In this document: in pieces, positions 31,006 through 31,700 of the stretch
Position numbering within the stretch: position 1 is the stretch's first letter
How the letters are laid out: each line of letters begins with the position of its first letter
NCBI GenBank assembly: GCA_013151565.1
Contig: JAADIB010000149.1
Coordinates: 1 to 32,509, forward strand
Origin: Chlorobiota bacterium
GTDB lineage: Bacteria > Bacteroidota > Ignavibacteria > Ignavibacteriales > Melioribacteraceae
Length of the DNA stretch: 32,509 nucleotides
Reading direction: 5' to 3'
Notes under the pieces: model-generated
What the model was told of the DNA's origin: nothing
Seen by the model: the letters and a program-made list of their open reading frames with translations, nothing else
Database searches by the model: none
Program-made: the position numbers and the translations under genes

Positions 31006-31078
31006 CGCGGGGTGGAGCAATTGGTAGCTCGTCGGGCTCATAACCCGAAGGTTACAGGTTCAAGTCCTGTCCCCGCTA
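31006..31078 (+). tRNA. Initiator tRNA-fMet(CAU)
   Basis: Manual cloverleaf: CGCGGGG-TG-GAGC-AATTGGTA-GCTC-G-TCGGG-CTCATAA-CCCGA-AGGTT-ACAGG-TTCAAGT-CCTGT-CCCCGCT-A. Initiator hallmarks: unpaired C1/U72, A11:U24, GGG/CCC in the anticodon stem. Full CCA not encoded. Confidence 0.95.
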
Positions 31079-31129
31079 CAAAAAAAAAGAAAACCTCAGT
31101 TTTTGCTGGGGTTTTTCTTTTTTAAATTG
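31071..31129 (+). repeat. 59-bp perfect repeat (tRNA acceptor end + terminator), copy A
   Basis: CCCCGCTAC...CTTTTTTAAATTG identical to 31642-31700 by base-by-base reading. Confidence 0.9.
31082..31125 (+). terminator. Rho-independent terminator of tRNA-fMet (copy A)
   Basis: AAAAAAGAAAACCTCAG-TTTTTG-CTGGGGTTTTTCTTTTTT. Confidence 0.85.
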
Positions 31130-31179
31130 GTTGTAGGTTCAATCCTCCGCCGCGGCGGAGCGGCGGACTGCCCCCGCTA
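31129..31179 (+). pseudogene. Displaced tRNA-fMet 3' fragment (copy B) with palindrome in the T-arm
   Basis: GGTT-GTAGG-TTCAATC-C[TCCGCCGCGGCGGAGCGGCGGA]CTGC-CCCCGCT-A; removing the insert restores a GTAGG/CCTGC T-stem. Confidence 0.85.
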
Positions 31180-31228
31180 TTTAGAAATAAAAAACCCAGG
31201 CTTTGTGTCTGGGTTTTTTATTTCTAAA
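31180..31228 (+). terminator. Terminator after tRNA fragment B
   Basis: TTTAGAAATAAAAAACCCAG-GCTTTGTGT-CTGGGTTTTTTATTTCTAAA, perfect 20-bp stem. Confidence 0.85.
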
Positions 31229-31344
31229 TTGGTAGTGATTCAGTTCTCCTGAGCAGCCGAATACCCCCATTACCCATTTAGCGAGCAAGTATTAAATATC
31301 TTTTATTAAGTACATTTTGCTTGAGTTTTTTTATTTTTAAACTC

Positions 31345-31608
31345 ATGAATCCAATTACTAAAAAATACTATACTTATGTAATAAAAAGTAAAGAGGGATT
31401 ACACTATACCGGTATGACCGAAAATTTAGAAAACCGTTTAAAACAACACAACAACAGAGCATTATCATTCTGGACAAAACGAGGTACAAATTGGCGACTC
31501 ATCTATTTTGAAGAATTTGATAATAAGACAGATGCTTTAATAAAAGAAAAATGGTTAAAATCCGGTGTTGGTAGAGAATTTCTGAAAAAGAATGTTGTAG
31601 ATTATTAA
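31345..31608 (+). CDS. Small GIY-YIG nuclease-domain protein (87 aa)
   Basis: MNPITKKYYTYVIKSKEGLHYTGMTENLENRLKQHNNRALSFWTKRGTNWRLIYFEEFDNKTDALIKEKWLKSGVGREFLKKNVVDY; YTYVIKS...YTGMT = GIY/YIG-like core with R and E positions. Only convincing plus-strand CDS in the window. Confidence 0.92.
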   Translation: MNPITKKYYTYVIKSKEGLHYTGMTENLENRLKQHNNRALSFWTKRGTNWRLIYFEEFDNKTDALIKEKWLKSGVGREFLKKNVVDY

Positions 31609-31609
31609 A

Positions 31610-31649
31610 GGTTGTAGGTTCAATCCGCCACGGCGGACTGCCCCCGCTA
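31610..31649 (+). pseudogene. Displaced tRNA-fMet 3' fragment (copy C) with shorter palindrome in the T-arm
   Basis: GGTT-GTAGG-TTCAATC-C[GCCACGGCGGA]CTGC-CCCCGCT-A; begins 2 nt after the GIY-YIG stop codon. Confidence 0.85.
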
Positions 31650-31700
31650 CAAAAAAAAAGAAAACCTCAGTTTTTGCTGGGGTTTTTCTTTTTTAAATTG
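31642..31700 (+). repeat. 59-bp perfect repeat (tRNA acceptor end + terminator), copy C
   Basis: Identical to 31071-31129; includes a second copy of the same terminator. Confidence 0.9.

Follow-up and report, generated by a model that had tools for sequence, protein, structure and literature searches.

A family of one-gene GIY-YIG cassettes living in bacterial tRNA genes

How does the gene for an initiator tRNA come to be followed by two broken copies of its own 3′ end, with the gene for a small nuclease set between them? The question is raised by a locus in the window, that is, the whole stretch of 32,509 nucleotides analysed here, which belongs to the draft assembly of a Chlorobiota bacterium (467 contigs, 3.75 Mb). 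A first-pass annotation, made from the letters, had described there an intact tRNA-fMet gene, two displaced 3′ pieces (B and C) sharing a T-stem GTAGG/CTGC, and a GIY-YIG ORF between B and C. All of these are present in the sequence. The features of the locus are as follows.

30916..30975, + strand: displaced, ORF-less 5′ piece of tRNA-fMet, covering tRNA positions 1-12 and 22-48
30928..30944, no strand: palindrome TCCCGATTTGATCGGGA within the D arm of this 5′ piece (one match in the window, where 0.07 would be expected)
31006..31079, + strand: intact initiator tRNA-fMet (CAT), T-stem allele ACAGG/CTGT
31071..31129, + strand: 59-bp direct repeat, copy 1, acceptor end and terminator A
31129..31179, + strand: displaced 3′ piece B of tRNA-fMet, T-stem allele GTAGG/CTGC
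31146..31167, no strand: palindromic insert TCCGCCGCGGCGGAGCGGCGGA in the T loop of B
31179..31229, + strand: terminator B, perfect 21-bp arms, unlike terminator A
31345..31608, + strand: GIY-YIG ORF, 87 aa, ATG start, UPF0213/SLX1-like
31610..31649, + strand: displaced 3′ piece C of tRNA-fMet, T-stem allele GTAGG/CTGC
31624..31637, no strand: palindrome TCCGCCACGGCGGA in the T loop of C
31642..31700, + strand: 59-bp direct repeat, copy 2, acceptor end and terminator A, adjoining the outer flank

The perfect 59-bp repeat of the annotation (31071-31129 = 31642-31700) is exact: it is the core of a 63-bp repeat (31067-31129 and 31638-31700) that carries a single mismatch. Piece C does begin 2 nt past the last base of the stop codon. 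The view that the unit encodes an 87-residue GIY-YIG nuclease and no integrase is borne out as well, as the ORF matches PF01541 (E=2.2e-14, residues 7-73), the only family found, and is the only ORF between the repeats, with no integrase gene in the unit. A full terminator had been ascribed to each piece. Both have one, but that of B is different, and only that of C is the terminator of the intact gene. What had been overlooked is that B and C lack a normal T loop, having after GGTTCAA a palindrome TCCGCC..GGCGGA in its place; the 5′ piece at 30916-30975 and the existence of arrays devoid of ORF had also escaped notice.

The two T-stem alleles, GTAGG/CTGC and ACAGG/CTGT, differ while each is self-consistent, so that B and C are not plain copies of today's tRNA-fMet. 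Displacement had been supposed to have happened more than once. Indeed, with B, C and the upstream 5′ piece, at least three events must be counted at this locus. The pieces have close counterparts elsewhere: B is identical at 47 of 48 bases to a piece in another Ignavibacteria genome (L135), and the first 35 bases of C are identical to a piece in L131, despite an identity of only about 64-70% between the ORF proteins. Around the window unit we found neither terminal inverted repeats nor a target duplication. The locus has the intact and the partial tRNA copy, set as a direct repeat, by which tRNA-integrating elements are recognized.

This arrangement is not an oddity of one tRNA. The 3.75-Mb genome contains 14 matches to PF01541, one of them UvrC (L014). 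Besides the latter and the window ORF there are 12 small GIY-YIG ORFs, ten of which have a tRNA gene on their own strand no more than 460 bp away: two at Asn loci, two at Lys loci, and one each at Val, Gly, Ser-TGA, Ser-GCT, Leu and Pro. One ORF (L013) is cut by a contig end and preceded by a tRNA-like 5′ piece; another (L010) stands without tRNA. Two layouts are met, intact tRNA – ORF – 3′ piece, and 5′ piece – ORF – intact tRNA. Two tRNA-Arg genes of the same genome (L269, L275) have 5′ pieces without ORF, with TCCGCCAAAGGCGGA in the D loop.

The picture is the same in 20 genomes of the same family or order. In two of them assembled as a single contig, G008 and G013, with 43 tRNA genes each, 8 tRNAs of the one and 4 of the other have an ORF on their strand within 700 bp, and 13 and 7 tRNAs have extra partial copies of themselves. 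Extending the search to the phylum, with an alignment of 18 tRNA-linked proteins as the query, gave matches in 91 of 148 Bacteroidota genomes. Twenty-seven of these loci were read: 24 have a tRNA on the same strand within 250 bp, and three have tRNA pieces only. Where, in the relatives, a tRNA lies within 300 bp of an ORF, both are on the same strand in 85 cases and on opposite strands in one. Chance closeness to tRNA genes is rejected by this ratio, together with 17 ORFs of another clade that have no tRNA beside them. The specificity for fMet and the T arm suggested by the first-pass annotation proves too narrow, and the route by T-arm homology that it put forward stays a hypothesis. Thirteen isotypes (Met, Asn, Ser, Pro, Cys, Asp, Arg, Lys, Gly, Leu, Val, Glu and Ala) carry an ORF, and probably tmRNA as well, judged by its 3′ end (L105); units occur both before and after the tRNA, and their junctions fall in the D, anticodon or T arm. 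At L105 (1150-1700) the tmRNA-like 3′ end is accompanied by a GIY-YIG ORF and by a displaced copy that has an insert in its T loop.

Relatives of the fMet ORF were also found by name, and an ORF in unrelated contexts would have spoken against the idea of a tRNA cassette. Among 40 of them, 29 have an intact tRNA close by (a tRNA-Met in 24), and seven more carry pieces of tRNA-Met, an outcome in favour of the first-pass annotation. Their hosts are Ignavibacteria, other Bacteroidota, Zixibacteria, Marinimicrobia and Phycisphaerae, and further tRNA-linked members are present in Zixibacteria and Marinimicrobia genomes. Among relatives, one and the same site can be occupied or empty. The congeners G014 and G016 share an array of Asn pieces with alignable flanks, to which G014 adds an ORF and one more piece. 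An fMet locus without the unit, which had been proposed as something to look for, is found in G013, where the tRNA-fMet has no 3′ unit but is preceded by a 5′ piece like that of the window (L196). Decayed ORFs and scars without ORF are seen too, as in a cycle of gain, decay and loss.

Some loci deserve a separate word. One contig (L259, G071:C34:6982-9769) strings together at least eight GIY-YIG ORFs in tandem, spaced by about 365 bp and separated by pieces of tRNA-Met. In G016 (L237:1560-3117 and L231), some 1.5 kb with other small genes separates tRNA-Asn from a displaced Asn piece, as if such sites gathered cargo. At L102 (1200-1320), ARAGORN calls a tRNA-Ser(GGA) that is really a copy of tRNA-Pro with its anticodon arm replaced by TCCCGACGGGATGTCGGGA; altered copies of this kind can enter databases as real tRNAs.

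The locus is thus a member of a large family of one-gene cassettes living in tRNA genes, with a recurrent anatomy. These cassettes are faithful to strand and isotype, present in some relatives and absent from others, and enriched in palindromes. The gene they carry is under purifying selection. In most pairs of ORFs dN/dS lies at about 0.04-0.4, well below 1, with more synonymous than non-synonymous change; two recent tandem pairs (3-4 changes) are too close for judgement. All 42 relatives compared retain the Tyr, Arg, His and Glu that a GIY-YIG active site calls for. The structure predicted for the 87-residue protein is confident (mean pLDDT 91.5), and the closest solved structures, in both sequence and fold, are UPF0213 proteins and SLX1 (1zg2, 1ywl, 7cq2, 6seh), not I-TevI. 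Nothing follows the GIY-YIG fold in this protein, which has no additional domain, no separate DNA-binding domain and no C-terminal RING domain such as that of SLX1 proper.

A tree of these ORFs (108 rows, 80 columns, with many forks unresolved) has one well-supported branch that separates the 17 ORFs without tRNA link from all others; we take this clade as the ordinary chromosomal kind of UPF0213/SLX1-type protein. On the same tree, isotype changes 20 times, against 67 times in shuffles. The nearest ORF at another locus belongs to the same isotype in 41 of 50 cases (at most 15 when isotypes are shuffled), and to the same genome in only one of 50, which implies that a unit does not jump from one tRNA to another inside its genome; transposition within the genome is accordingly rejected as the main route. 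One lineage keeps to one target across hosts. Vertical descent would look alike, and isotype fidelity, which also fits plain inheritance at each tRNA, cannot separate horizontal from vertical transmission.

A sister group of GIY-YIG minis is found inside protein genes (L080, L083 and L099, in G017 and G009; L074, in G010). Three of them are at different places of genes that, by eye, resemble those of tyrosine recombinases, the one of L099 lying between HTFRHS and FATHLL; one is inside a gene that by eye encodes a four-helix-bundle-like protein. Three have GCCCGTGAGAT upstream, and several have TATCTCACGGGC at the end of the ORF (C-terminus YLTG), as if they were bounded by inverted repeats.

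We now come to the palindromes. Arms of at least 7 bases are found in 42 of 95 non-redundant displaced pieces, whereas control DNA, drawn 60 times to match, gave 0.48 on average and never more than 2; arms of at least 6 bases are found in 55 of these pieces, against 2.4. More than half of the 95 pieces fail the 7-base test. Across the 3.75 Mb of the window genome there are only 13 sites of the form TCCGCC..GGCGGA and 68 of the form TCCCG..CGGGA, so that the palindromes of the window pieces are not there by chance. Five of these 13 sites are in tRNA pieces, seven in one dispersed repeat and one elsewhere; the idea of a single repeat family confined to tRNA pieces is rejected on these grounds. 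The dispersed repeat that holds the seven is a two-hairpin element, AATCCGCCAAAGGCGGACAAGGGATGAATT.. (L268, L270-L273, L276, L277). RNA folds of displaced pieces are no better than those of shuffled sequences, and the scan against Rfam gave no RNA family but tRNA, with no RtT match in the arrays scanned. Covariation of the palindrome arms was dropped as a proof of selection, as palindromes inserted independently would look alike.

The geometry of the units is regular. If we write a tRNA as A-B-C (parts of the gene, not the pieces named above), a 3′-type locus reads A-B-C-terminator-(ORF or spacer)-a′-palindrome-C-flank. What the unit therefore inserts between arm B and half C is half a tRNA, then an ORF or spacer, then a stub followed by a palindrome, and the altered tRNA piece is the one that adjoins the native flank. 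As read from the individual loci, the palindrome seems to sit in the arm adjoining the junction: a stub from the D loop goes with a palindrome in the anticodon arm, a stub from the anticodon or variable region with one in the T loop. In 5′-type units it is in the D or anticodon arm. Many partial copies in the relatives form tandem arrays without ORF: five units of 90 bp before tRNA-Asp (L221), about eleven of 67 bp before tRNA-Asn (L195), four of 114 bp after tRNA-Pro (L214), and, at Met and Val (L171), units of 110 and 136 bp. A unit may thus carry the ORF or do without it.

What maintains these units? The balance of probability leans, if slightly, to a site-specific selfish gene that would persist and spread much as free-standing homing endonuclease genes do. 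The unit is made of the GIY-YIG ORF, or a short spacer, and a partial tRNA copy, one intact tRNA remaining; the partial copy, adjoining the outer flank, is dead, often with a palindrome in one arm. The nuclease would make a break at the tRNA locus it is cognate to, or in a structure arising at that locus, and the unit would be installed when the break is repaired with a unit-bearing copy as template. Repeated rounds, or unequal exchange, might then build tandem arrays, and loss of the ORF would leave scars. As for the palindrome, it may protect the dead copy against cleavage or prevent it from functioning as a tRNA. This reading meets a difficulty at the window locus. In the occupied allele the displaced piece is altered by the palindrome, while the intact tRNA and the 59 bp that follow are retained. 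They are identical to what an empty site would have there, and a nuclease reading only that stretch would cut the occupied allele too. The hallmark of homing, an occupied target unlike the empty one, is not evident: the recognition site may extend beyond this stretch, the nuclease may act on the altered or extruded piece instead, or it may be no driver at all. The predicted protein, with its lack of a separate DNA-binding domain and its kinship with UPF0213 and SLX1 rather than I-TevI, also argues against homing.

A serious proposal, with probability on the whole against it, is that the family consists of phylum-wide mobile units made of a tRNA half, an arm-replacing palindrome and an optional SLX1-like nuclease, with arrays arising through structure-guided recombination and neither an integrase, a transposase nor classical homing at work. 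A wholly passive origin appears unlikely. tRNA loci would partially duplicate in tandem by recombination, dead copies would collect palindromes, and the GIY-YIG gene would be a resident, with work on DNA repair or RNA, caught once at each tRNA and inherited vertically ever after. The common ORF-less arrays and the existence of near-identical tandem units agree with this, as do an isotype fidelity compatible with vertical descent and a fold of the repair type; yet passive duplication would hardly place the same clade of ORFs repeatedly, and always on the strand of the tRNA, at 13 isotypes, leave a sister-type clade of 17 ORFs with no link to tRNA, or make occupancy patchy between relatives.

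It is quite doubtful that a structure-specific, SLX1-like activity suffices, with a nuclease cutting branched or extruded DNA (the palindrome or the tRNA arms) and starting the unequal exchange that builds arrays, without any homing that reads a sequence. ORF lineages specific to an isotype suggest that sequence is recognized, and similar palindromes exist away from tRNAs, even if the nearest solved structures are those of UPF0213 proteins and SLX1, palindromes sit in tRNA arms or replace them, and the same position in the T loop recurs across species. Insertion of the units by a recombinase acting in trans, with the nuclease as cargo, is very improbable. A tyrosine integrase, or the Y1 transposases of the genome (six Y1_Tnp matches), might be called upon, tRNA ends being classic integrase sites where one complete and one partial copy are left (PMC9897764). 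This has to cope with units that have no integrase, with a cargo that is the same clade of ORFs each time and with 5′-type units unlike the usual integrase layout. The proteins are missing from phage and viral contig collections and have only weak plasmid matches, which goes against this route and gives no support to a phage or plasmid origin. Finally, an assembly artefact, named at the outset as what could undo the whole observation, may be dismissed as extremely improbable: the draft is in 467 contigs and the repeat near perfect, but the same layout recurs in many independent assemblies, the single-contig G008 and G013 among them, and the repeats differ in sequence from unit to unit.

What began as one odd locus is a genome-wide and phylum-wide pattern that lends itself to testing. 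It explains spurious tRNA calls such as that of L102, as well as odd GIY-YIG paralogues in the annotation of Bacteroidota, and it prompts one to ask how the arms of dead tRNA copies come by their palindromes. If the nuclease drives the spread, essential tRNA genes would be home to the smallest known kind of selfish nuclease gene, and this gene would have a built-in way of sparing its host.

It remains to set these cassettes among known systems. A search of the literature, with preprints and most subscription papers outside its scope, returned no tRNA-linked GIY-YIG units in bacteria, which is weak evidence of novelty. In Escherichia coli, the tyrT locus has 178-bp repeats (rtT) in tandem beside the tRNA, each with a piece of it, and the arrays described here are likewise tandem repeats beside a tRNA with tRNA pieces; to our knowledge, rtT repeats have no nuclease ORF and no palindrome replacing an arm. 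The cassette nuclease shares fold and sequence with UPF0213/SLX1-type proteins (PMC1564403). It lacks, however, the RING domain of SLX1, while the 17-ORF clade of the ordinary kind lacks the tRNA link. Integrative elements of tRNA genes, such as ICEs, prophages and islands, have one intact and one partial tRNA copy at their ends (PMC9897764). The cassettes resemble them in the intact and partial copies and the direct repeat of the tRNA end, but are without integrase, have one gene in about 0.3 kb and form tandem arrays; moreover, their displaced piece is altered by a palindrome and 5′-type units occur. Phage T4 harbours in its tRNA region SegB, one of the seg genes, which are free-standing homing endonuclease genes. 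It is listed in PMC13096335. Like the seg genes, the cassettes place a small GIY-YIG gene, outside any intron, beside tRNA genes, with one lineage for each target. Unlike them, they are on bacterial chromosomes, rebuild a tRNA copy while leaving a dead palindromic piece behind, and encode a protein with no extra DNA-binding domain, the cutting activity of which is predicted. It is plausible, with key features of the process being predictions, that the cassettes work like a free-standing homing gene while looking like a tRNA-integrated element minus its integrase.
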